Source: a virus
Strand: one strand, 5' to 3'
DNA: 24,304 nt
Virus record (IMG/VR): IMGVR_UViG_3300048091_000259
Location: 1-24,304 of that record
The translations under genes were made by a program, and so were the position numbers. Positions 1 to 14,285 of the stretch are shown here, in pieces (position 1 is the stretch's first letter; each line of letters opens with the position of its first letter). Under the pieces are notes generated by a model. That model had not been told where the DNA came from and made no database searches. It saw only the letters and a program-made list of their open reading frames with translations.

Positions 1-183
1 CATACCTGCGCCATTATCCTTCGCATTATACTCCGCCGCCTCCGTTTCCGCATACGTCTGCAGCTCCGTTATATTCGTACGTAGACGCTTAACTTCCGCA
101 GTCAATTCCGCGATCCGCGCCGTATAATACGCTTCCGACTGCTGCGTAACCTCCATCATTCTCTGCGCAAATGGATCGTTCAT
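1..183 (-). CDS. hypothetical coiled-coil protein (C-terminus outside window)
   Basis: The frame starts at ATG 183 (MNDPFAQRMMEVTQQ) and stays open to the window edge, so 61 residues are visible and the 3' end is missing. An AGGTGA Shine-Dalgarno lies about 4-9 bases upstream, and the start follows the stop of the 192-542 gene by a few bases, so the two form one operon. Residues about 15-50 show a heptad-like pattern rich in E, A, L and R (for example IAELTAEVKRLRTNITELQ), as expected for a helical coiled coil. I do not recognise the family; the function is unknown. Its place at the head of the leftward operon suggests a small early phage protein. Confidence 0.7.
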   Translation of the reverse strand, partial: MNDPFAQRMMEVTQQSEAYYTARIAELTAEVKRLRTNITELQTYAETEAAEYNAKDNGAGM

Positions 184-191
184 CGCGTCAC

Positions 192-542
192 CTACTCCGA
201 AGCTACTGGCGCGGAACATGCCGCCAGCGCAGGAAGTATCGCGGACGTTATAGCGTTATTGAGTCGCGCAGTCTCCTTCGTATACTCGACAACTAAGTCC
301 GCAATTGTACGCGCCTCCGTTGCGTTATTCACGTCACGTACGATCGCGCTCCGTACTGCAGACGCCAGGCCGTCCGATGTTAGCGGATAGTAACCGATAG
401 GGCGCCAGTCTTCGCGTATCTCAACGCCCATTTCCGGCTTATACCACGGTGAGCGCGTCGGGTCTACGAGGTGGCGGCGCTGTAAGGTGAACTGCGTATC
501 GTCCGCAGCTAGAGCGTAATTCGCGGTTATCGTAACGTTCAT
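192..542 (-). CDS. small hypothetical phage protein, early region
   Basis: This is a 116-residue protein starting at ATG 542 (MNVTITANYALAADD). I chose this start over an in-frame ATG at 578 because GGAGGAGG sits 8 bases upstream of 542 and nothing comparable precedes 578. The pattern is a short beta-rich N-terminus, a PTRSPWYKP stretch, an EIREDWRPIGYYPLTSDGL segment and a helical C-terminus. It resembles the small phage proteins of unknown function that describe a gene-product pair of beta strands followed by WxxxGYYPxL; I cannot assign a family with certainty. It is the first well-marked gene after the 543-1124 non-coding control region and is followed directly by the 1-183 gene. No signal peptide or membrane segment is visible. 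Confidence 0.75.
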   Translation of the reverse strand: MNVTITANYALAADDTQFTLQRRHLVDPTRSPWYKPEMGVEIREDWRPIGYYPLTSDGLASAVRSAIVRDVNNATEARTIADLVVEYTKETARLNNAITSAILPALAACSAPVASE

Positions 543-618
543 ATTTCGTTCCTCCTCCGAATGTGTAAAATAGTGCAAACGATTTGGCGCGCGGTCACTA
601 CCTGATGAAAATTACGTG

Positions 619-647
619 TTGACTTACGTGGCGTGCTCCGTTATTTT
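619..647 (+). promoter_or_regulatory. sigma-A-like promoter, rightward
   Basis: TTGACT (619-624), a 17-base spacer and TATTTT (642-647) give 5/6 and 4/6 matches to the -35 and -10 consensus. No plus-strand gene with a ribosome site follows within 1 kb, so a transcript from here would be non-coding or antisense to the early leader. Confidence 0.4.
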
Positions 648-657
648 AATGATCTTT

Positions 658-720
658 TCTTTAAAGATTTAAGTACTTAAGACCTTAACTCACTTAATAA
701 TCACTATGTTCTTATTAAGT
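658..720. repeat. cluster of three AT-rich dyads
   Basis: Three perfect dyads lie in 63 bases: TCTTTAAAGA (658-667), TTAAGTACTTAA (669-680) and ACTTAATAA (692-700) paired with TTATTAAGT (712-720) across 11 bases. CTTAA also recurs as short direct repeats at about 677, 684 and 693. Such clusters serve as repressor operators or as parts of replication origins; which one cannot be decided here. Confidence 0.6.
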
Positions 721-1124
721 TCGTACGCTTAGAGACCGAAAAACCCGTTTATCGCGGTATATTTAACATATAAGGAACCGCGTGGACCTTAAAAGATAAA
801 AGAATAACACCGTACAACTCGCCGCGCCGCCCGCGTATGTTTCGCGCTCACCTCTCGTATAGGATCATCCACGTAATTTCCACACGTTTTAGGCTCGTTA
901 GGGTATCGGAGGTATTATCGGAACCCCTACGGTACTGGACGCGGTAATTATAGTGGAAAATCTGTGGACGTTTTACGTCCCGCTAATTCCGGTGTGCCTC
1001 CGCTATAGAACTTTATACCGCCAACGATCTGCTAAGGAGTATTCGCGTTACAAAAAATAGTTCTAAGCGCGTAATATGCAAATAGTGCAAATACCTATGG
1101 TTGACTCGGGATTGGCTACGCTAA

Positions 1125-1226
1125 CTACTCATGCTGATCATCCTCCTCCGCGTTGTAAAGGCCGAATGAAAACGCGATAATACCGACCGCGCATACACAT
1201 AACCAAACGATGAAGAACGTGTCCAT
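1125..1226 (-). CDS. putative 33-aa single-pass membrane peptide
   Basis: ATG 1226 opens a 33-codon frame ending at TAG 1125. The product begins MDTFFIVWLCVCAVGIIAF, a continuous hydrophobic stretch of about 20 residues, followed by a short polar acidic tail (NAEEDDQHE). This N-in or N-out single-span plan with a charged tail is typical of tiny phage membrane proteins. Weak point: the nearest purine-rich site (GGAAGGGG) is about 14 bases before the ATG, longer than usual. A promoter-like pair lies at 1323-1352. Another frame over the same DNA encodes an arginine-rich product that looks unnatural. No function can be assigned. Confidence 0.4.
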   Translation of the reverse strand: MDTFFIVWLCVCAVGIIAFSFGLYNAEEDDQHE

Positions 1227-1289
1227 AAGTACAACGTCATCCCCTTCCGTAGAATTTGCGTTATGGTACGGTAACGATGGCCGATTCCA

Positions 1290-1420
1290 TTTCGCACACA
1301 TTACCGTAAAATTATTTCGCCTATACTATTGATACCTGCTCATAGTACGCAAACCTGGGACATTGCCCTTACACTTACATAGTCGTTCGTCGATCGCGTT
1401 TCGCACACTTTCCGTAAAAT
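1290..1420. repeat. two ~22-base direct repeats flanking a promoter-like site
   Basis: TTTCGCACACATTACCGTAAAAT starts at 1290 (1290-1312) and a near copy with one deletion and few changes lies at 1399-1420; TTTCGCACAC and CCGTAAAAT are shared exactly. The copies are about 109 bases apart, close to ten helical turns, and sit on either side of the -35/-10 pair at 1323-1352. They are good candidates for operator half-sites of a looping repressor or for activator sites. The rest of 1227-1420 shows no gene. Confidence 0.5.
1323..1352 (-). promoter_or_regulatory. possible leftward promoter
   Basis: Read on the minus strand: TTGCGT (1352-1347), an 18-base spacer and TAGTAT (1328-1323). It lies between the two direct repeats and upstream of the 33-aa ORF. 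The matches are moderate. Confidence 0.3.
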
Positions 1421-1456
1421 AAAAAAAAAACGGACACCAACGGAGGTTAGTCCGTT
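1421..1456 (-). terminator. intrinsic terminator after the DUF4177 gene
   Basis: On the minus strand AACGGAC (1456-1450) pairs with GTCCGTT (1435-1429), with a partial inner stem, followed by an uninterrupted run of ten T. It lies 24 bases past the stop codon of the gene at 1480. Confidence 0.85.
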
Positions 1457-1479
1457 AAGTGCCCGTTATTGTCGCTGCG

Positions 1480-1671
1480 TTACGCGCTCTTACGTTTAAA
1501 TGTCGCGAAGAGCTCATCGGAAGAACCTACGCCGGCTCCCGCAGTGTACATCGATACTAGTTCCCAACCTTCCGCGCCTAAACGGTTGAGTTCCTCGTCC
1601 GGATTAAACTTCGATTTAAATACGCCTTTACGTTCGAATCTGATCGTTTGATACTCGAATCTGTCCGCCAT
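1480..1671 (-). CDS. DUF4177 family protein
   Basis: The 63-residue product starts MADRFEYQTIRFERKGVFK and contains NRLGAEGWELVSMYTAG followed by a final strand (DELFATFKR). This strand, charged helix with AEGWELV, strand plan is the signature of the DUF4177 family, small proteins common in Firmicutes genomes and their phages and of unknown function. GGGGAG lies 10 bases before ATG 1671 and a terminator follows the stop, so it appears to be a single-gene transcript. Its upstream leader overlaps the plus-strand ORF at 1675-1836. The family call is from memory of the motif, not from a search. Confidence 0.85.
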   Translation of the reverse strand: MADRFEYQTIRFERKGVFKSKFNPDEELNRLGAEGWELVSMYTAGAGVGSSDELFATFKRKSA

Positions 1672-1849: not shown

Positions 1850-1878
1850 TTCGGAGTGCAAACCGTGACCCATACGCT

Positions 1879-1924
1879 TTCCTAAACTATGCGTCGCGGG
1901 TTCGAATCCCGCCGTGGCGCGCCA
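1879..1924 (+). other. attP: attP candidate: 3' half of a tRNA-Arg(CCT)
   Basis: The segment starts with TTCCTAA, a textbook 7-base anticodon loop with anticodon CCT (T32 T33 C C T A A). It continues with a 3' anticodon-stem arm, a 5-base variable loop GCGTC, then GCGGG-TTCGAAT-CCCGC (1896-1912), a perfect T-arm, and ends CGTGGCG-C-GCCA. The 5' half of a tRNA is absent: no proper anticodon-stem partner or D-arm precedes it. Phages that use tyrosine recombinases commonly carry exactly this tRNA 3' half as the attP core beside int, and an int gene begins 118 bases downstream. There is one base more than expected between the T-arm and CCA, so the identity with the host tRNA may stop within the acceptor arm. 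Confidence 0.7.
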
Positions 1925-1962
1925 TACCTAAAATCCGCGCTATATCAACGTTTTACCTACGT

Positions 1963-2041: not shown

Positions 2042-3079
2042 TTGGATCCGAGAAAAGGACGCGCGGTCGTTAAAGGTAACCGCAGTATTGTACGCACGAA
2101 CCTGGCGCTCAGCCTTAGCGACGCGTTCGATTTGTTCTATAACGCTAAGAAGGCGGCCGGCATGCGTGGTAGTACGCTATTTAATGATTACACCGTCAAC
2201 TGGCGTTATTTCCGCGAGTGGGTGGACGAATCTTATCCACATGTTAATAACGTTGATGAAGTGACTTCCGAACATATACGCGATTACGTAAATTATATGA
2301 GCACTAAGCCGAAATATAGCGGTATTGAAAATCGCGAGACGGGCAAAACTTTATCTCCGTATACAGTCACGGCCCGACTGCGCACAATACGTACGTTCTT
2401 CAACTTCATAACCGGAGAGGGCTTGTTGAACGTTAACCCAATCCGCAATATAAAGAATCCGCGTTTCGATAAGGAAGATAAGGAAACGTTCAATGACGAT
2501 GAGTTACGCAGCCTGCTATCGGCACCAGACACGACAACTTACGCCGGCCTACGCGATCGTACGTTAATGCTATTACTCGCGGACACTGGTATGCGTATTA
2601 ATGAAGCGCTCGGTTTAAGTAAGGAGCACGTTAACTTTAAAGGCCGCTGTATCGAGTTACCGGCGTCGATGAACAAGAACCGGAAGCCGCGTGTTGTCCC
2701 AATGTCCGCAGATGCTACACGCGAGCTTCTAACGTTAATTAACGAGAACCAACGCTATTTCGATACGGACTACATCTTCCTCGCTAACTACGGCGACCCG
2801 TTACGCGCGGACCACTTCCGTAAACGTCTGAAGGAACACGCGAAGAAAGCCGGTATCGATCTTGCGCTGGCCCATCCGCATCAGTTCCGTAGTTACTTCT
2901 GTACAACGTTCTTGCTTAACGGAGGCTCGCTATTCGTACTGCAACGTATTGTCGCGCACGCCAATATCGAGACTACACGCGGTTACGCTAAGATGAACGA
3001 TACGCACGCGCTCGAGCAACACTCGCAGTTCTCACCGTTGGCCCGACTCGGCTTATCGCGTGTCAATAAACGTAAGTAA
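2042..3079 (+). CDS. int: tyrosine recombinase (phage integrase, XerC/D-like)
   Basis: The 345-residue protein catalyses site-specific recombination between attP and a host att site. Residues about 20-135 form the SAM-like core-binding domain (FNDYTVNWRYFREWV, LSPYTVTARLRTIRTFFNF). The catalytic domain follows, with all six expected residues visible: R185 (DTGMRINEAL), K215 (KNRKPRVVPM), H280-x-x-R283 (HPHQFRS), H306 (IVAHANIETT) and Y315 (TTRGYAKM). The start is TTG 2042, because an in-frame TAG lies at 2027 and no other start occurs before residue 41; AGGGGG is 8 bases upstream, inside the terminator stem. It is one of only three plus-strand genes proposed here and converges on the ATPase gene at 3092. 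No N-terminal arm-binding domain of lambda type is evident, so arm contacts would have to use the first 20-odd basic residues. Confidence 0.95.
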   Translation: MDPRKGRAVVKGNRSIVRTNLALSLSDAFDLFYNAKKAAGMRGSTLFNDYTVNWRYFREWVDESYPHVNNVDEVTSEHIRDYVNYMSTKPKYSGIENRETGKTLSPYTVTARLRTIRTFFNFITGEGLLNVNPIRNIKNPRFDKEDKETFNDDELRSLLSAPDTTTYAGLRDRTLMLLLADTGMRINEALGLSKEHVNFKGRCIELPASMNKNRKPRVVPMSADATRELLTLINENQRYFDTDYIFLANYGDPLRADHFRKRLKEHAKKAGIDLALAHPHQFRSYFCTTFLLNGGSLFVLQRIVAHANIETTRGYAKMNDTHALEQHSQFSPLARLGLSRVNKRK

Positions 3080-3083
3080 ACGT

Positions 3084-3115
3084 AAGGGGAGTTATTCAGC
3101 GTTCTTCCTCCCCTT
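3084..3115. terminator. hairpin between convergent int and ATPase genes
   Basis: AAGGGGAG (3084-3091) and CTCCCCTT (3108-3115) form a perfect 8-bp stem, followed by AATTT on the plus strand. It overlaps the last codons of the ATPase gene. The U-run is weak, so it may act as a bidirectional barrier rather than a strong terminator. Confidence 0.5.
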
Positions 3116-5542
3116 AATTTCCGCTAACACTTCCTTCGTCGGACGCCCGTACGCGACTATGTGTTTCTTCGTAAGGAACTCGTTATCCATCGTTTTATAC
3201 CGATCGGCTACGCGAGGCAATGCGTCTGCTACGAATGGCGGCGCATAGTCTCCGGTGCTGTCGAGCCATACTCCGATATACTGGAACGCCTTCGTAGCCT
3301 CGAACGCTTGCTGCGGATCGGAAAACGTTTGTGAAAGATACGGCATCAACCGTTTATACGCGTCCTGGTTCGTATTCTTAAACAGGTGCCAGTTAACGGA
3401 GGACGACAGTAGAATATCGACGAAGCCCGGATACTTTTTAAATTGCGCGAAGTTGTGAAATGCCATAACGAGCATCAACTTATACTTCGGTGCTTCGCTG
3501 AATATGCGCTCGATAAAGTGTACGAGTCCGGACGATAGGAATTGATGCGGTTCATTAAGCGCGAGTATCGTACCGGCACCGCGGCCATCGAGCGATAGTT
3601 TAATGAGGAACGTTAGCATGACGAGCCAGTATCCGAATATCTTTTTGACCGGTTCGGGCATCGCGGCTCCCTGCGGCATCTTTATACGGAGGATAACGAT
3701 TTTACCTTCGCTAATCCATTTGTATAAATCCGCGGTTGGGTTCGGGTTCGGCTGGCAAAACATCGGCTTCGAATACTCGCGGTTAGCTAACATGTCGATA
3801 CGCCGAATAACCGGAGCTGCGAGTTGCCCTTGCCTACCGGACATCATGCCGCCCTTATCCGTCAACGAATCGTAATCGCGCCATAAATCCATATCGAGTG
3901 TATCGTCGAGGTCCGCGATCTTCTGCTTACGGAATTTTTGCTCTTTGAACATCCGCTTCATATCCTGCAGGTCGCCCATCGTTGCTTTCGCAGCTTCGCG
4001 GCAAAACTCCTGCGTCTGAAACTTATCTTCGTCACCGTCCGATAGTAAAAAGTCCGAAAGGTACTCGCTCACTAAGTCCGCAGCGATACGCGGATCCTCT
4101 ACGTTACGGAATATCGTCTGCAGTCCGAGATAGAACGCGTACGCCGTATTGGAGAAGTCGAGGTCGATAACGTGTTCCGGTTCGATATGATCACGTATTG
4201 CGTTCGCCATTCCTTTCCAGTGACCGTCGCTATCCTTATTCCGCTCGTCGATAAAGTCCGGTATGATCGCGCCTATCTTGTGCTTACGGAATGACTCGAC
4301 GATAAAGTTGATCATCGCTTGGTCCTTACCCATACGCGGCGACCCCGAGAATGCGCGGAAAGTGTACAGTAGATTCGCGTTCTCCGTCGGTACGTGTACG
4401 TTATGCGCTACGCCTCTATCCGTAGCCGTGCCCGCGAGTATACCGCTATCATCCAGGAACACACGCGGCAACTCGATCTCAACGCGGCGATTCGACGACA
4501 TTACATCCGCAAACTCCGTTTGTAACTCCGCGGTCGGTAGCTGCGTTAATTTGCCGAGCTCATCAACGGACATAAGTGCCGGAGTGAAATCGCGGCGACT
4601 ACGTATATTAACCTTCACGGATTCCAAGCGGTTATCACCCGCGAGCGATCCGTAAGCGCCCGCCACCGATCGCGCTAGCATACCGCGTTTCACTTCGTCC
4701 TCTGCCGTAACTGCATATCGGATTGACGTTTTGAATACGGGAAGATTCCGTTTGTTCTTCGTCATCGCGGACAGATCACCGTTAACTAATAACTCCGCGC
4801 GCTCAGGATTACGGAAGACTGGCCGCTCCAGCTTCGTACGCGAACCACCTCCGTGGAAGAACGTTTTCTCAATGCCGGACATCACGTCGTTAACGAGCGC
4901 GTGTACTTCGTAAATAACGTACACAATTCCGTTAGCTACGCCGCGTAATACCCGTAGCGGATCAACACCGGCTTTCTGCGGTACACCGCCTTTATCCCAC
5001 GTTTCCCATGCGTAATCAACTAACCGTTTCCACTTACCGCGGCCGACCGTTTCCTGGCGAATGAACAATGTGACTGCTTCGTTACCGGCCAGTTCGTTCA
5101 TAACGGATAACACTTCGCGCACCGGCGTTTGCTGTTCGTTATAGCGGAAGTCGAGCGAGAACATATCGTGACGTTTATACTTTAGCGCGTATAAGTCCGT
5201 ATTCTCTTCCGCGTATAGTTCGAAGTCATCGACGATCCCGAGCGTAGATTTCCTCCACTGTTCGTGATTGCGGAATTTCGTACGGAACGCATCGGCAAAC
5301 TCGGCGGGCACCCTAACGTAATAGGCGATGGATTCCGTAGTCAGCTTCGTAATCCAATAGAAGTCCGGTGCTGGCTGCGTTACGATACGGAAGCCTTCAC
5401 GTTTCGGTTTTTGTCTAACGCTGAGCAGTTCGTATAGTGCGCGTTGGAAGTTACGGGACGCCGAGTTGAGTACGGTATGGTGCGGAATAATTCGATACGT
5501 TACGTACACACTAGTCGCCTCCTTTACGTAAAAGCGCTCCAT
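3092..5542 (-). CDS. VirD4/TraG- and FtsK-HerA-like DNA-translocating ATPase
   Basis: About 816 residues from ATG 5542 (MERFYVKEATSVYVTYRII); an in-frame ATG at 5584 would add 14 residues lying over the upstream gene, and neither has a clear Shine-Dalgarno. The N-terminal 400 residues resemble the N-domain of conjugation-type ATPases, with PALMSVDELGKLTQLPT just before the motor domain, as in VirD4-like proteins. A P-loop follows, AFSGSPRMGKDQAM (K406), but with D where S/T is usual. The later hydrophobic strand TILALNEPHQFL takes the Walker B place with N in place of the usual D, and VMAFHNFAQF resembles a sensor motif. A hydrophobic stretch (residues about 200-220, VANGIVYVIYEVHALV) may anchor it. 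It is the last gene of the 3092-6743 operon. I infer a hexameric DNA pump; cargo unknown. FtsK/SpoIIIE-type genes near lysis genes are, from memory, known in Gamma/Wbeta-like Bacillus phages. Confidence 0.82.
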   Translation of the reverse strand: MERFYVKEATSVYVTYRIIPHHTVLNSASRNFQRALYELLSVRQKPKREGFRIVTQPAPDFYWITKLTTESIAYYVRVPAEFADAFRTKFRNHEQWRKSTLGIVDDFELYAEENTDLYALKYKRHDMFSLDFRYNEQQTPVREVLSVMNELAGNEAVTLFIRQETVGRGKWKRLVDYAWETWDKGGVPQKAGVDPLRVLRGVANGIVYVIYEVHALVNDVMSGIEKTFFHGGGSRTKLERPVFRNPERAELLVNGDLSAMTKNKRNLPVFKTSIRYAVTAEDEVKRGMLARSVAGAYGSLAGDNRLESVKVNIRSRRDFTPALMSVDELGKLTQLPTAELQTEFADVMSSNRRVEIELPRVFLDDSGILAGTATDRGVAHNVHVPTENANLLYTFRAFSGSPRMGKDQAMINFIVESFRKHKIGAIIPDFIDERNKDSDGHWKGMANAIRDHIEPEHVIDLDFSNTAYAFYLGLQTIFRNVEDPRIAADLVSEYLSDFLLSDGDEDKFQTQEFCREAAKATMGDLQDMKRMFKEQKFRKQKIADLDDTLDMDLWRDYDSLTDKGGMMSGRQGQLAAPVIRRIDMLANREYSKPMFCQPNPNPTADLYKWISEGKIVILRIKMPQGAAMPEPVKKIFGYWLVMLTFLIKLSLDGRGAGTILALNEPHQFLSSGLVHFIERIFSEAPKYKLMLVMAFHNFAQFKKYPGFVDILLSSSVNWHLFKNTNQDAYKRLMPYLSQTFSDPQQAFEATKAFQYIGVWLDSTGDYAPPFVADALPRVADRYKTMDNEFLTKKHIVAYGRPTKEVLAEIKGRKNAE

Positions 5543-5856
5543 ATTACGCCGGCCCAAAACGTTACGAACAGGCGGCCGACCCATTTACTACCGGAACCAA
5601 GTAGCGGACCGACCATCATGCCGACCGCGCAGACAACGATCGCAAGCGTAGCGATTTCCGCAGAGTTTGCGTTAAGTACATCCGCAATATGACGCGCCCA
5701 ATCGGTCAACGTATTAGACGCGGGCTTAACGAGTAACTCCGCTTCCTGACCGATGAACCAATCCGCAAAGTTGTTCAGTTGTTCCATAATACCGCCGCTG
5801 CCCGTAGGATCCGCCGTACCACTCGGTAACGCTATTCCGTTTATTCGAAGTATCAT
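5524..5856 (-). CDS. small membrane protein, conjugation-like module
   Basis: Starting at ATG 5856 (MILRINGIALPSGTADPTGSG), with GAGG about 11 bases upstream, this gives 110 residues; a GTG three codons earlier is possible. A polar N-terminal half with a predicted amphipathic helix (MEQLNNFADWFIGQEAELL) is followed by two closely spaced membrane segments: ATLAIVVCAVGMMVGPLLG and WVGRLFVTFWAGVIWSAF. It overlaps the ATPase start by 19 bases, so the two are probably translationally coupled. The hydrophobic hairpin recalls small inner-membrane subunits such as VirB3 or VirB2, but the resemblance is only in plan. I do not recognise a family. Confidence 0.75.
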   Translation of the reverse strand: MILRINGIALPSGTADPTGSGGIMEQLNNFADWFIGQEAELLVKPASNTLTDWARHIADVLNANSAEIATLAIVVCAVGMMVGPLLGSGSKWVGRLFVTFWAGVIWSAFT

Positions 5857-5870
5857 CGCGACCACCGCCT

Positions 5871-6221
5871 CTATAACGTTTTCAGCCAGTTACGGATATC
5901 TAACGCGTGCCGAACGATAATGTATCCGATGCTGCCGCCCATGATAAACTCGATCGCCTTCGTACGGTTATTGAACATCCACGTAACACCTGCGTAAACG
6001 ATGACGCCCGCACATAACCAATCCGCGATATTGAGTACCGTAGTGAATATCTCCGTCCACGTATCCTGACCGGGCACCGCAGCGAATACGGTCGTCGGCA
6101 ACAACGCGAGGTGAACGGTGCTGGCCGTTTTCTTAACGAGACTTAGCGTAGACTTACGCTCTTTTTCAACGACATTACCGCGCATAAAGTCCGCCCAATC
6201 TAACGCTTCAATACGTGCCAT
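5871..6221 (-). CDS. VirB2/TrbC-pilin-like small membrane protein
   Basis: Start ATG 6221 (MARIEALDWADF) has AAGGA nine bases upstream; an earlier ATG at 6230 would overlap the previous stop as ATGA but leaves no spacing for that site. The basic N-terminus (VEKERKSTLSLVKK) leads into a hydrophobic stretch ending LLPTTVFAAVPGQ, which looks like a signal sequence with an A-x-A cleavage point. Two membrane helices follow: VLNIADWLCAGVIVYAGVTW, then a short polar NNRTK turn and AIEFIMGGSIGYIIVRHAL. Long leader, two glycine-containing helices and a short cytoplasmic loop are the layout of VirB2/TrbC T4SS pilins, so I call it pilin-like by architecture; there is no sequence match I can prove. Confidence 0.7.
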   Translation of the reverse strand: MARIEALDWADFMRGNVVEKERKSTLSLVKKTASTVHLALLPTTVFAAVPGQDTWTEIFTTVLNIADWLCAGVIVYAGVTWMFNNRTKAIEFIMGGSIGYIIVRHALDIRNWLKTL

Positions 6222-6226
6222 AACGA

Positions 6227-6511
6227 TCATTCCTTCCCGGTATAATTACGCTTTGTAGCGGGAACTATATTAGAAAAAGGAGGCGACGTTTTATGCACTT
6301 TCTCATCGGACTTATTATCGGAGGAGCTATCGGAGCTCTTACGCATCTGTTCTAAAACTCGGCGGTTCTCGGCGTGCATATGTGCGTATAGGACCGCCTT
6401 TACATATCCGCTAAAATTGTCTCCGCAGTGATCCATTACCCATTTCAGTAACGCTTCCTGGTTCGGATTCTTCGCGTTGAAGCTGACCGCTTTCCGTACG
6501 TACTGATCCAT
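6227..6511 (-). CDS. ribbon-helix-helix-like small protein (ParR/CopG-type plan)
   Basis: ATG 6511 (MDQYVRKAVSFNAKNPNQE) with GGAAGGGG about 8 bases upstream gives 94 residues; a longer frame from 6553 lacks this site. Residues 5-45 show the order beta strand (RKAVSFNAK), helix (PNQEALLKWVMDHC), GDN turn, helix (FSGYVKAVLYAHMHAENRR), which matches ribbon-helix-helix DNA-binding proteins such as CopG, AlfB and ParR. The C-terminal third is serine- and lysine-rich and probably disordered. In conjugative plasmids such proteins bind oriT or centromere repeats, so it is a candidate specificity factor for the ATPase downstream. No ParM- or TubZ-like filament gene is present in the window. Confidence 0.7.
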   Translation of the reverse strand: MDQYVRKAVSFNAKNPNQEALLKWVMDHCGDNFSGYVKAVLYAHMHAENRRVLEQMRKSSDSSSDNKSDEKVHKTSPPFSNIVPATKRNYTGKE

Positions 6512-6743
6512 CCGCGTTATCCCCTTCCGTTTGTTTCTTACGTTTACCTTCACGCCGTTTTTCAGTTACACCACCGCGTGATTTCAATTCCGCGATTAAC
6601 GTTTCGATCGCAGCTATATCGTCTAAGAGTTCGTTAGTTATCGCGTTATTTTTTGCGACTGATTGCGCGTAATTAACGAGCATACCTCCGAGTGTTTTTA
6701 CGGAAACTTCGCCCGCCATACGCTTCAATAACGCCTTATCCAT
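6411..6743 (-). CDS. helical hypothetical protein, first gene of the conjugation-like operon
   Basis: I start it at ATG 6743 (MDKALLKRMAGEVSVKTLG) because AAAGGAGG lies 11 bases upstream; a TTG at 6803 in the same frame has no ribosome site. It gives 110 residues. Residues 1-65 are natural-looking and helical (GGMLVNYAQSVAKNNAI, LLDDIAAIETLIAELKSR). The last 45 residues are low-complexity and hydrophilic, and they share 101 bases with the start of the next gene in another frame, so they may carry little function. The family is not recognised. An operator-like palindrome lies about 60 bases upstream. Confidence 0.6.
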   Translation of the reverse strand: MDKALLKRMAGEVSVKTLGGMLVNYAQSVAKNNAITNELLDDIAAIETLIAELKSRGGVTEKRREGKRKKQTEGDNADGSVRTESGQLQREESEPGSVTEMGNGSLRRQF

Positions 6744-6805: not shown

Positions 6806-6823
6806 TTCCGTATTTTTACGGAA
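6806..6823. promoter_or_regulatory. operator-like palindrome between divergent genes
   Basis: TTCCGTA (6806-6812) and TACGGAA (6817-6823) form a perfect 7-bp inverted repeat across TTTT. It sits next to a minus-strand TTGACC (6803-6798) that could be a -35 element and about 70 bases before the plus-strand HTH gene, a natural place for a repressor of the divergent pair. Confidence 0.5.
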
Positions 6824-6893: not shown

Positions 6894-7118
6894 ATGTTTG
6901 GATTAGGTAAGAAGCGTAGTAAATACGGAAGGTTTCTAGATGAACACGGGATCAATCAGGAGAGAGTGCGCGAGGTTACGAAGTTAAATAAAGACACGTT
7001 AACGAGGGTATGTAATACGGATCAATACCCGAGCGGTACGACGATGCGGAAGTTAGTAGATGCTGCGCGAAAACTAACGGGTAAGGACGTAAAGGCTGAC
7101 GATTTTTGGACGATGTAA
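6894..7118 (+). CDS. small helix-turn-helix regulator (XRE/Cro-like)
   Basis: The 74-residue product starts at ATG 6894 (MFGLGKKRSKYGRFLDEHG). It contains INQERVREVTKLNKDTLTRV as helices 2-3 and YPSGTTMRKLVDAARKL as the following helix, the usual order in Cro/C1-type DNA-binding domains; the final segment (VKADDFW) is the short wing-like ending seen in phage Cro proteins. The protein is basic. It is divergent from the 3092-6743 operon, and it ends against the lysis terminator at 7122-7165. By position it would control the conjugation-like operon, possibly through 6806-6823. The ribosome site (GGGTGGTG) is mediocre. Confidence 0.85.
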   Translation: MFGLGKKRSKYGRFLDEHGINQERVREVTKLNKDTLTRVCNTDQYPSGTTMRKLVDAARKLTGKDVKADDFWTM

Positions 7119-7250: not shown

Positions 7251-8036
7251 TTAGAATAACTCTTTCCGGTGCATGATCGTTATGAACCGGTAGAAGTCTT
7301 CCGAGCCTCCGTCCGGCGTATCGATAAGTTTCGCGCAGACAGCCGCATCCACTGCCGCTTTCGCCCACGTTGGTACTGCCGCCATCTTAAGCGTTCCCTC
7401 TAACGTTTTAATCCGTTCCGCTTGCGCTTCGACCGTAGCCTGGAGCGCGCTAAACGCCTTCTTCTCATCCGCTGTCATTGACGTATCCTCCTCCGCTTTT
7501 TCCGTTCCATATGCGATAACTGCCGCGACAAACTCCGCTTTATCTATTCCGCTACCCGGGCACGTTTTGAGTGACGTCATCTCGCGGTGAAATACGATGC
7601 GGCTACCGAACATATCCGCTAGTGCACGCGTTAAGCCGACCGCCGTACGTAGTTGCGCGCCCTCTAACTTCTCCGCGCCTTTATCGAAGTTACCGATCAT
7701 CTCGAACATGAACGGATGCACTCCGTCATTATCCGAATCGTTAAATCCGGTCGCTGACGCCGGTGCTTGCGTTAACGGACGCCCATCCCATATGTAACCG
7801 TCCGGATCAATCGTAGCGTGCTGCGCAATATCAGACCATCCGTTAACTTGCGTATGCGTACGGTACATCGCCTGAATATAAAACGATGGATCCGCTTTAC
7901 TCCGATACATTGCGATCGTCGGCTTCCACGTTCCATGCACGTGTACTTCTGGAAACTTAACGCGGCCAATGTACGTACGCAGATACGCGGTAAACTCTTC
8001 GAGTGTATAGCGTCTAAACGTTTTTGGTACCGTCAT
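7251..8036 (-). CDS. endolysin, N-acetylmuramoyl-L-alanine amidase
   Basis: This 261-residue enzyme would cut the amide bond between muramic acid and the stem peptide of the host wall at lysis. Residues about 20-170 form an Amidase_2/PGRP-type zinc domain: VHVHGTW gives H34, FHREMTSL gives H150, and TCPG gives C159, the three zinc ligands expected. A coiled-coil linker (residues about 180-220, EAQAERIKTLEGTLK) leads to a C-terminal WAKAAVDAAVCAKLIDTPDG segment resembling an SLH-like wall-binding unit. No signal peptide is present, so it depends on the holin next to it. The start overlaps the holin gene by 23 bases. It is the last gene of the late operon before the 7122-7165 terminator. Confidence 0.93.
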   Translation of the reverse strand: MTVPKTFRRYTLEEFTAYLRTYIGRVKFPEVHVHGTWKPTIAMYRSKADPSFYIQAMYRTHTQVNGWSDIAQHATIDPDGYIWDGRPLTQAPASATGFNDSDNDGVHPFMFEMIGNFDKGAEKLEGAQLRTAVGLTRALADMFGSRIVFHREMTSLKTCPGSGIDKAEFVAAVIAYGTEKAEEDTSMTADEKKAFSALQATVEAQAERIKTLEGTLKMAAVPTWAKAAVDAAVCAKLIDTPDGGSEDFYRFITIMHRKELF

Positions 8037-8439
8037 CGTTTACGCCACCTTTATCCTTAAGTACGGTGATAATACGTTTAACTGCGTCCGGTAGAGGTAA
8101 CCCGTGCCGTCCGTAATTTTCCGCTAACGAAATCATCTCGTTCGCGATATAGAAGTACGTCGCTGCGCCCATTGTTACGTCGTCTAACTCGAGCAAAACG
8201 TCCATACGGTGCGCGAGTATAATAACGAGTAGCATGAGCCCTTTCTTCGCGAGACCGACCGCTCCTACCGCGCTACTAATGCCGCGCCCCTCTTTAATAG
8301 ACGCAGAGACGCCGGAGATAATATCGACGCCAATCACGCATAAGAGAAACGTTAACGCCTCCGTCCAGTGACCGAAAGCGAACGTAATAAAAGCGCCAGC
8401 TATGCCGACGCCCGTAGTAACCGCTATTTGACTATTCAA
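8014..8439 (-). CDS. phage holin, toxin-secretion/holin_4 family
   Basis: The 141-residue product starts at TTG 8439, chosen because GAGGAGG lies 7 bases upstream and the start overlaps the stop of the preceding small gene. Membrane segments are visible at VGIAGAFITFAFG, ALTFLLCVIGVDIISG and KKGLMLLVIILAHRM, with a fourth weak one at AATYFYIANEMISL. The DIISGVSASIKEGRG and YIANEMISLAENYGRHGLPLP motifs are typical of the Bacteriophage_holin_4 family of Firmicutes phages. It makes the membrane lesion that releases the endolysin encoded next. Confidence 0.93.
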   Translation of the reverse strand: MNSQIAVTTGVGIAGAFITFAFGHWTEALTFLLCVIGVDIISGVSASIKEGRGISSAVGAVGLAKKGLMLLVIILAHRMDVLLELDDVTMGAATYFYIANEMISLAENYGRHGLPLPDAVKRIITVLKDKGGVNDDGTKNV

Positions 8440-12702: not shown

Positions 12703-13059
12703 TTATACGTATAAGTTAAATAAGTCATTCCACACGTAATTCATCGAATCGTAATCCGCACCGTGCCGTAATTCGTCCCATGTCATTGCGCTAAGTCCGT
12801 TCCAATCGTCTTCTTCTAACGATTCGAACTCCGTTACGTCCTGCATCTCGTCCCACGATATCGCGCCCTGCCCTACGATTACCTGTCCGCAGAGGTGATA
12901 ACGGTGTAAGCGGTAATTCAGCTTCACCTCGACTTCGAAGTCCGCAAATAGCTTCAGAATGGACGTTAGCGCACCGGCCGCGGCATCGTCGAGGCGTTCG
13001 GATTCGAGCGCGCCTACACGCCGTTCGAGGTTCTTTAATATGTCTGTTGCGCTGCTCAC
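12703..13059 (-). CDS. hypothetical baseplate/tail protein with WDE repeats
   Basis: 118 residues from GTG 13059, with GAGGAGG upstream and a GTGA overlap with the previous stop. The N-terminus is a short coiled coil (ILKNLERRVGALESERL). The C-terminal half carries a repeated motif, AISWDEMQDVTEFESLEEDD then AMTWDELRHGADYDSMNYVW, i.e. SWDEM/TWDEL followed by an acidic segment. It lies between the hub and the fibre, so a linker or baseplate part is likely. The family is not recognised. Confidence 0.7.
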   Translation of the reverse strand: MSSATDILKNLERRVGALESERLDDAAAGALTSILKLFADFEVEVKLNYRLHRYHLCGQVIVGQGAISWDEMQDVTEFESLEEDDWNGLSAMTWDELRHGADYDSMNYVWNDLFNLYV

Positions 13060-14285
13060 GACGTTACCTCCTCGAACTCGACCGATTTAGTCACGTTAAT
13101 CGTATCGGGCGCGCTTACCGTAGTCGTCACGGATTTACACAGCCAGTACGAGTCCACGTCGAGCTCGGGCACCACCACGCGGTATTTAAGTCCGCGCTTC
13201 ACGTCGTGGTCGAGCGTCTCGAACGACATCGTACGTATCTTCGAACTCCTACGTTTAAGCTCCGCCCGTCCACGTGCCCGCGCCGCCATCTTCTCCGTAA
13301 TCTGCTTATCCTTAACGGCTTTCTCGTAGATACCGTATTTAGCGATCGACGCGGTATCTTCGAAATAGTCGATAATCTGAATAGTCGGCCGGTATTTAAA
13401 GTGAAGCTGTACTCCGTTCGGCAACGGACCGCCTACGCGTTTGAGGTACTTATCCTTCTTGCCGTAAACGTAATCCTTATCGGACGGCGATCCTTTATCG
13501 ACCTCGACCGTCTTCTTAACGCCATCCTCGTACACTTCCGGATAGTTCGGCGTAAACGCAATCGTGAAGATATCGTTCTTACCGTCGCCCGTCCAGAATT
13601 GCTCCGTATACTGCGGTGAAGACGATTGCGATCCGATAACCCATACGCGGTTAGCCGTTTTATCGTTAATCTCCGACGTAAGGTTAATCGTGTCTTTACG
13701 GATGTTCCGCGTTAGACCGCCGTCCGTTGTCGTGGAGAATACGGTCGCGCCCGTACCTTCGTCCGTTTGGAAGAAATGTAACGCGCTATCCTCGTCAACG
13801 TACCAGCGGTAACCGGTAATGTCCGCGAGTTGCTGTACGCAATCAATCAACGGTAAATACATGAAGTCGACGCGTTCTATGAGCGGTGTGTTAGCGACAT
13901 TTGACGCGAGTGTAATACCGCACGGATACCGCGTAAAGATGTCCGTAATGATGTCCGCCGCTTTCTTGTTCTCGTAGATACGGTTAACAATGCGGTTCTG
14001 CAGCTTTAGCGAGCGGTCCGTACCTTTCCACGTAGAAAAGCGGTAGAGCTGAGCCCCACCGCGTAGTTCATCCGTTTGATCTTCGATAACGCCGACGAAT
14101 ATCGCCGCGCCACCGTAAGTAACTGCGATATCGCTCATCGCGTGTGTTTCCGATAAGTTGATTATAGCGACGTCAATCGTAGACGCTCCGTCTATCGTCT
14201 CTTTAATGCTAACGCTCTGCACACGCTCGGTAACGCTGATCGTTTCGTCGAGGTCGTAATCGTAAATCGCGACTTCCATCGCCAT
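13056..14285 (-). CDS. tail hub / tail-associated protein (gpD/gp27-like)
   Basis: 409 residues from ATG 14285, with GGAGG upstream and a TAATG overlap with the tape-measure stop. The first 90 residues form a beta domain (SVSIKETIDGASTIDVAI, VTYGGAAIFVGVIEDQT) and are followed by a helical and beta segment with KKAADIITDIFTRYPCG and the DITGYRWYVDEDSALHFF motif. This is the plan of the late-control-D/gp27 hub proteins that close the tail end in siphophages and myophages. It would bind the tape-measure C-terminus and carry the fibre proteins encoded next. No separate distal-tail (Dit) gene is visible between this gene and the tape measure. Confidence 0.82.
   Translation of the reverse strand: MAMEVAIYDYDLDETISVTERVQSVSIKETIDGASTIDVAIINLSETHAMSDIAVTYGGAAIFVGVIEDQTDELRGGAQLYRFSTWKGTDRSLKLQNRIVNRIYENKKAADIITDIFTRYPCGITLASNVANTPLIERVDFMYLPLIDCVQQLADITGYRWYVDEDSALHFFQTDEGTGATVFSTTTDGGLTRNIRKDTINLTSEINDKTANRVWVIGSQSSSPQYTEQFWTGDGKNDIFTIAFTPNYPEVYEDGVKKTVEVDKGSPSDKDYVYGKKDKYLKRVGGPLPNGVQLHFKYRPTIQIIDYFEDTASIAKYGIYEKAVKDKQITEKMAARARGRAELKRRSSKIRTMSFETLDHDVKRGLKYRVVVPELDVDSYWLCKSVTTTVSAPDTINVTKSVEFEEVTS

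Follow-up and report, generated by a model that had tools for sequence, protein, structure and literature searches.

What does a set of genes resembling part of a conjugation apparatus do in the genome of a tailed phage? The question is raised by a 24,304-base virus record of IMG/VR (IMGVR_UViG_3300048091_000259; the whole stretch is hereafter called the window), in which five closely packed minus-strand genes (positions 3092–6743) encode a helical protein (HEL), a ribbon-helix-helix (RHH) protein, a TrbC/VirB2-like (pilin-like) protein, a two-span membrane protein and an ATPase of the VirD4/VirB4/HerA class. The answer that we prefer, at little better than an even chance, is that this operon is a phage-encoded minimal module derived from a type IV secretion system (T4SS), which translocates DNA, probably the phage genome, and probably to a neighbouring cell.

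Gene order and products of the operon

An initial annotation, made from the window sequence alone, had described five packed minus-strand genes at this place; all of them were confirmed, with coordinates refined (gene starts were set by Shine-Dalgarno spacing). Paenibacillus and Neobacillus relatives, whose ATPases are 60–92% identical to that of the window, were revealed by a scan of IMG/VR and GTDB contigs. Nine other loci, some of them near-duplicates, have all five genes in exactly the order HEL – RHH – pilin-like – two-span – ATPase (L010, L012, L014, L015, L016, L017, L019, L020 and L021), and the order RHH – pilin-like – two-span – ATPase was also found in L002, L003, L008, L011, L013, L027, L031, L034–L038 and L076. 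Compared with L010, all five window genes are open, and the dN/dS values are 0.09 for the ATPase, 0.12 for the pilin-like protein, 0.18 for the two-span protein, 0.39 for the RHH protein and 0.46 for HEL. Judged by these comparisons, the gene order recurs in prophages of Paenibacillus and Neobacillus, with its genes under purifying selection. The initial annotation would have been undermined by a lack of conservation; instead, the order recurs across loci.

A chance association of unrelated small genes was ruled out by the conserved order and the dN/dS values. Pfam matches of the small proteins to eukaryotic families were dismissed as low-complexity noise. The module is also carried, with ParM retained, by a 66,180-base contig of Paenibacillus sediminis (NZ_JAGGKP010000011.1; G004/L050, L051), which has an exact 45-base terminal direct repeat and may represent an excised or circular form.

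The ATPase gene (3092..5509, minus strand) most likely starts at GTG 5509, giving a protein of 805 amino acids (aa) rather than the 816 aa originally proposed or the 830 aa of another possible start; GTG 5509 was chosen because it is preceded by the Shine-Dalgarno sequence AAAGGAGG, while the reading frame is open back to 5584. Its Walker A motif (GSPRMGKD) lies at 4322–4345 and its Walker B region (LALNEPHQ) at 3542–3565. The protein matches phrog_5156, a family of unknown function, over its full length (E = 7.3e-149, residues 20–825). In the AlphaFold2 (AF2) model the pLDDT is 69.8, with the motor part mostly at 80–96, and Foldseek searches with this model returned as best matches R388 VirB4/TrwK and TrwB, followed by HerA (E of about 1e-9 to 1e-6), as well as other VirD4-class ATPases. 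The TMt values reach 0.65 against VirB4 and 0.59 against TrwB. The VirD4/HerA-like ATPase of the initial annotation was thereby borne out, and the non-translocase fold that would have contradicted it did not appear. Fold alone cannot place the motor as VirD4 or VirB4; the neighbours in phage G and in an Embleya plasmid favour VirD4, because there the homologues adjoin a separate VirB4-like gene. On the model, the window ATPase is of the VirD4 (type IV coupling protein) class, its hexamer being a prediction. It has no Pfam match to FtsK_SpoIIIE, the type on which the single-translocase TraB systems of actinomycete integrative and conjugative elements (AICEs) are built.

The pilin-like protein (116 aa; 5871..6221, minus strand) was recognized by alignment as a leader helix followed by a transmembrane hairpin with a conserved G-N-R loop. 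The same arrangement is visible in the AF2 model, in which the leader helix is followed by a long hairpin (helices 53–82 and 86–115), and this topology of leader, hydrophobic hairpin and basic loop is that of VirB2/TrbC pilins. The match to Pfam TrbC (E = 5e-5, 23.8 bits) lies under the curated cut-off of 27.9 bits. A profile of the family, compared with all PDB sequences, found two chains only, both VirB2 and both weak (E = 0.64 and 2.9), and Foldseek gave unspecific helical matches only. Sub-threshold TrbC/VirB2-like matches arose independently in the window, TP-84 and 031MP002. The VirB2/TrbC-like pilin proposed earlier is thus a candidate assignment, in agreement with the topology and the sub-threshold TrbC match but not with any result of the fold search.

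A motif resembling TIKWxDFF or ALDWADFM was observed near the N-terminus of 18 of the 27 pilin-like proteins, including that of the window, and of 7 of the 48 ATPases (those of L002, L003, L008, L034, L036, L037 and L076); among other open reading frames it occurred in 8 of 641 within the first 45 aa and in 13 of 641 within the first 110 aa. Being common to pilin-like proteins and ATPases, it is possibly a shared docking motif.

The two-span protein (110 aa; 5524..5856, minus strand) corresponds, by alignments and hydropathy, to the membrane part of a fusion protein of relatives, in which an M23/LytM peptidoglycan hydrolase domain opens the gene (L011, L015, L021, L027, L031, L035, L036 and L076). 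PF01551 was detected in 6 of the 17 relative records tested, always in the two-span gene (E of about 1e-27), and the fusions examined have intact HxxxD and HxH catalytic motifs. In the window protein the initial residues (MILRING) and the membrane part are kept, but the M23 domain is missing. The absence of the hydrolase is most readily explained by a secondary loss in the window lineage rather than a gain by relatives, because two divergent ATPase clusters have the domain and other clusters have it as a separate gene. The earlier remark that the module lacks a peptidoglycan hydrolase holds for the window but not for the wider module, to which the hydrolase appears to belong; fuller versions would include a VirB1-like role. 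The two-span protein was also considered as a second VirB2-like pilin, and this was rejected by a negative profile comparison with the pilin-like family and by the M23 fusions of its relatives. Pairs of M23 and family ATPase genes were also seen on Paenibacillaceae chromosomes (L059–L063, L073 and L074); in L073 and L074, the two whose wider surroundings were examined, the pairs adjoin phage-type genes.

The RHH-type DNA-binding protein (94 aa; 6227..6511, minus strand; alignment) connects the operon with DNA segregation. Its profile, built from window relatives, matches the gene directly behind ParM in D6E, PJN02, L011 and L013, and in L013 and L011 the position immediately ahead of the RHH gene, which in the window is occupied by HEL (110 aa; 6411..6743, minus strand; alignment), is taken by ParM. 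ParM is present in L011, L013, L034, L038 and L073. Despite its RHH gene, the window module contains neither ParM nor a centromere-like array and so does not make up a ParMRC partition system; a comparison of the RHH profile with the PDB gave no useful match. The RHH protein is best read as a putative ParR/ParG-like protein that is retained even without ParM, which suggests that it may also serve the ATPase. Since the RHH family is the ParM partner in related phages, the module would also have a DNA-segregation side.

The wider family and the phage setting

The ATPase family was found in 52 phage records, among them SPO1 (gp27.4) and its relatives, CampHawk, GBK2, Ray17, 049ML001, LysYB1, D6E, vB_BboS-125 and TP-84, to which a distant query added phage G and PJN02; it also occurs in a few plasmids. 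At E ≤ 1e-20, matches were obtained in 28 of 300 Paenibacillaceae genomes and in 10 of 399 genomes across the phylum, the weaker of which may be other coupling ATPases. Family alignments were made clade by clade, and neighbourhoods were counted with our own profiles over 48 loci, which form 21 ATPase clusters at 60% identity. Upstream of the ATPase, a small membrane protein was found in 15 of these clusters, ParM in 8/21 and M23 in 7/21, while an RHH gene accompanies 9/21 and Replic_Relax lies downstream in 5/21. Pfam confirmed ParM/ALP in SPO1, D6E, vB_BboS-125, L011 and L073, M23 in MMB025, L011 and L073, and Replic_Relax, placed after the ATPase, in SPO1, PJN02 and a B. amyloliquefaciens plasmid. 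The recurrence of related operons in many otherwise different phages of spore formers suggests that viruses employ a much reduced, conjugation-like machine for moving DNA.

Fuller sets of genes occur in distant members. Phage G (L042, 761–6325) encodes, in adjacent genes, a TrbL/VirB6 homologue (gp153, E = 1.8e-11), a VirB4 homologue (gp155, E = 1.6e-15) and the family ATPase (gp156); the gp153–gp156 block also includes a small membrane protein and is apparently a much fuller T4SS in a jumbo phage. In the Embleya plasmid, the ATPase homologue stands beside VirB4-like, PrgI-annotated, Replic_Relax and NlpC/P60-annotated genes. In the Paenibacillus prophage L073, the genes holin, GH25 lysozyme, regulator, ParM, RHH, small membrane protein, M23 and ATPase follow one another in line. 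Just downstream of that module (12998–14135) lies an AgrB homologue (PF04647, E = 2e-18), adjoined by a membrane protein of similar size and sequence start, which was also observed downstream of the L031 module.

All named phage hosts are Bacillota that form endospores, with the only exception of the record of the Microcystis phage MaeS (MT362618.1, 73423–74982). This sole non-Bacillota phage record with the ATPase has a size (80 kb) like that of the B. megaterium Slash-type phages, which also match the ATPase.

The window phage itself is of the Paenibacillus type. From the right, and all on the minus strand, it encodes a terminase (fragment), portal, scaffold and capsid proteins, further head and tail proteins, the tape measure protein and the tail fibre region, followed by the holin (8014..8439; PF05105, E = 3.8e-30) and the endolysin (7251..8036; PF01510, E = 7.6e-7) directly upstream of the operon. 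Beyond the ATPase, and convergent with the operon, lies a tyrosine integrase gene (2042..3079, plus strand; PF00589, E = 1.3e-33), followed by a 52-base segment (1878..1929, plus strand) that consists of the 3' half of a tRNA-Arg gene plus flank and is common to the attachment site of a prophage of Paenibacillus sp. BK033 (L018). In that prophage the order is lysis genes, module, integrase, tRNA-Arg and host genes, and window positions 16–1671 correspond to the sequence at its opposite end. Both prophage ends are joined in the window, which therefore has an attP-like site; after integration, the module would lie at the edge of the prophage.

A gene for an XRE/Cro-type regulator (6894..7118, plus strand; Pfam HTH_26, E = 7e-4, just below the cut-off) is divergent from the operon. 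Its homologues are found likewise divergent and in the same place in most close relatives (L010, L011, L013, L014, L016, L020 and L031). The palindrome TTCCGTAAAAATACGGAA (6806..6823), between operon and regulator, is a candidate operator.

Possible functions

If the operon is a DNA-translocation module, the RHH protein would bind a site on the phage genome and load the DNA, ParM filaments, where present, would position the RHH-bound DNA, and the VirD4/VirB4-like ATPase would pump it through a membrane pore, presumably composed of the VirB2-like protein and the two-span protein. Where the latter has an M23 domain, as in fuller versions of the module, this domain could open the peptidoglycan locally. 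As for timing, the dedicated XRE-type repressor may hold the operon off until it is needed. The cargo is most likely the phage genome and the destination most likely a neighbouring cell, or alternatively the forespore. The reduced conjugation-like DNA-translocation module of the initial annotation agrees with the composition, synteny and recurrence described above, and needs correction as regards the loss of the hydrolase and the segregation side.

Several observations weigh against this reading. No second, VirB4-type ATPase was found among the window genes scanned with Pfam and PHROGs, and Pfam searches of the module genes and PHROGs searches of the window yielded neither VirB6 nor VirB8; VirB4 genes stand beside the family ATPase in distant relatives only (phage G and Embleya), and VirB6/TrbL only in phage G. 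Relaxases (PF13814, PF02486, PF03432) were not found in the records of close relatives, the PF13814 (Replic_Relax) search having had no positive control, nor were PF02486 and PF03432 found in the window's own record, which is a fragment. The window does not formally qualify as a T4SS, since genes for a relaxase, VirB4, VirB6 and VirB8 were not found in it. The absence of relaxase and VirB4 genes noted initially is valid for the window and its close relatives, but such genes flank the homologous ATPase in other phages. A search near the operon for iterons and oriT-like (origin of transfer) or centromere-like arrays detected short repeats in no more than two copies, except for a set of three copies in L012. 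Moreover, PF01551 was not found in the window, which thus has no VirB1-type peptidoglycan hydrolase, and ParM is missing as well. The Walker B motif reads NE in the window and GBK2 clades, as opposed to DE in SPO1, D6E, vB_BboS-125 and an A. dauci plasmid homologue, and the pilin assignment combines sub-threshold matches and topology with an uninformative fold search.

The strongest competitor, which we nevertheless regard as unlikely, is that the ATPase pumps the phage genome through a closing division or sporulation septum in the manner of SpoIIIE, with ParM/RHH positioning and wall remodelling, so that daughter cells or the forespore inherit it. The recurrent ParM/RHH pairs are in keeping with this, and the nearly complete restriction of hosts to endospore-forming Bacillota keeps it alive, although such a bias may reflect phylogenetic inertia. 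Phage DNA is known to become trapped in spores, and it has been suggested that segregation genes of phages assist in this (PMC10294663). On the other hand, the window and several close relatives have no ParM and integrate at a chromosomal tRNA gene, which makes partition unnecessary, and neither a VirB2-like protein nor an M23 domain with a complete active site is expected in a septal pump.

We give less credit still to a role in superinfection exclusion, defence or protein export, in which a membrane complex would block or act on incoming DNA or secrete a protein. The interval between lysis genes and attachment site is a usual place of lysogenic-conversion genes, and the module lies there with its own regulator; furthermore, HerA/TdpA-type ATPases, which the window model resembles, act in anti-phage defence. 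However, members of the ATPase family also occur in virulent phages (SPO1, TP-84 and phage G), HerA-type defence ATPases are paired with nucleases, none of which is in the module, and the ParM, Replic_Relax and M23 partners fit poorly.

The operon could also be a remnant of mobilisation, i.e. a coupling protein and accessory set from a conjugative plasmid that uses a host conjugation apparatus or is decaying. The lack of M23 and ParM in the window lineage, the failure to find a relaxase and the plasmid origin which the Tyrovirus authors, in their passage on a ParM–RHH–type IV secretion–Replic_Relax block, propose for it (PMC9703825) would accord with this. We consider it improbable, as the five genes are open, their dN/dS values against L010 are 0.09–0.46 and the family is spread over many divergent phage clusters. 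That the module acts inside the cell, in the replication, packaging or ejection of phage DNA and without envelope transport, is very improbable: it lies near recombination and replication genes in some phages, but its upstream partners are membrane proteins and wall hydrolases, and the window already has its own terminase and tape measure genes.

A bolder extension of DNA translocation by the operon is that tailed phages of spore formers encode a conjugation apparatus in miniature, by which naked phage DNA passes between cells as an alternative to transmission by virions; lytic, temperate and plasmid-like phages would reuse the same core, which in phage G would be expanded to a fuller T4SS. 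This we regard as speculative and rather doubtful. Should phages indeed operate a reduced T4SS, viral and conjugative transmission would be less sharply distinct: a single genome could exit its cell by a membrane channel as well as in capsids, or could be delivered into a spore by pumping. The module would then be among the smallest for DNA translocation and could help to define the T4SS parts that a monoderm envelope cannot do without. The neighbours of SPO1 gp27.4 include ParM and Replic_Relax homologues, so that these long-known but unassigned genes become open to testing, and the family is large enough for study in model phages.

Comparison with known systems

In the open literature (subscription papers not covered) we found no account of the pilin-like, M23 and ATPase genes as a module of phages, and little on phage-encoded T4SS or conjugation-like systems beyond a remark on Tyrovirus. 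Gamma/Wbeta-like phages carry FtsK/SpoIIIE genes near their lysis genes, presumably of a different ATPase family. With ParMRC partition the module shares, in many relatives, ParM and an RHH protein; in the window, however, the RHH gene is accompanied by HEL in place of ParM, and the ATPase, pilin-like and M23 genes lie outside ParMRC.

The Tyrovirus (Thrax) block gp11–18 is described in the passage devoted to it as ParM, RHH, type IV secretion protein and Replic_Relax genes, for which a plasmid origin is proposed (PMC9703825). It resembles the present family in combining a T4SS-type ATPase with ParM, RHH and Replic_Relax partners, and PJN02 (L046), whose ATPase matches the family profile, shows the Tyrovirus-type arrangement; the window differs in having neither ParM nor Replic_Relax. 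That passage treats the plasmid-derived genes of one phage group and mentions no pilin-like protein, M23–membrane fusion or family-wide module.

A precedent for very small conjugation systems is offered by actinobacterial AICEs and the single-translocase conjugation of Streptomyces, in which a single ATPase is stated to be required for DNA translocation and replaces a complex T4SS (PMC3218068). That ATPase is of the FtsK/SpoIIIE type, whereas the window encodes one of the VirD4/VirB4/HerA type, with a pilin-like partner, in a phage.

The Gram-positive conjugative T4SSs of pCF10, pIP501 and Tn916 differ from the window in that it has no identified VirB3, VirB4, VirB6, VirB8 or relaxase and is carried by a tailed phage. 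A 2025 review of T4SSs, in which the word phage is absent, calls the VirB2-like pilin array of the Patescibacteria, which are monoderm, remarkable, lists LytM domains among Gram-positive VirB1 proteins and describes membrane-anchored LytM hydrolases as part of Gram-positive T4SSs (PMC12857230). With these systems the window shares a VirD4-class ATPase, a candidate VirB2-like protein and a putative DNA-binding accessory protein, and its relatives add a LytM-type, VirB1-like hydrolase.

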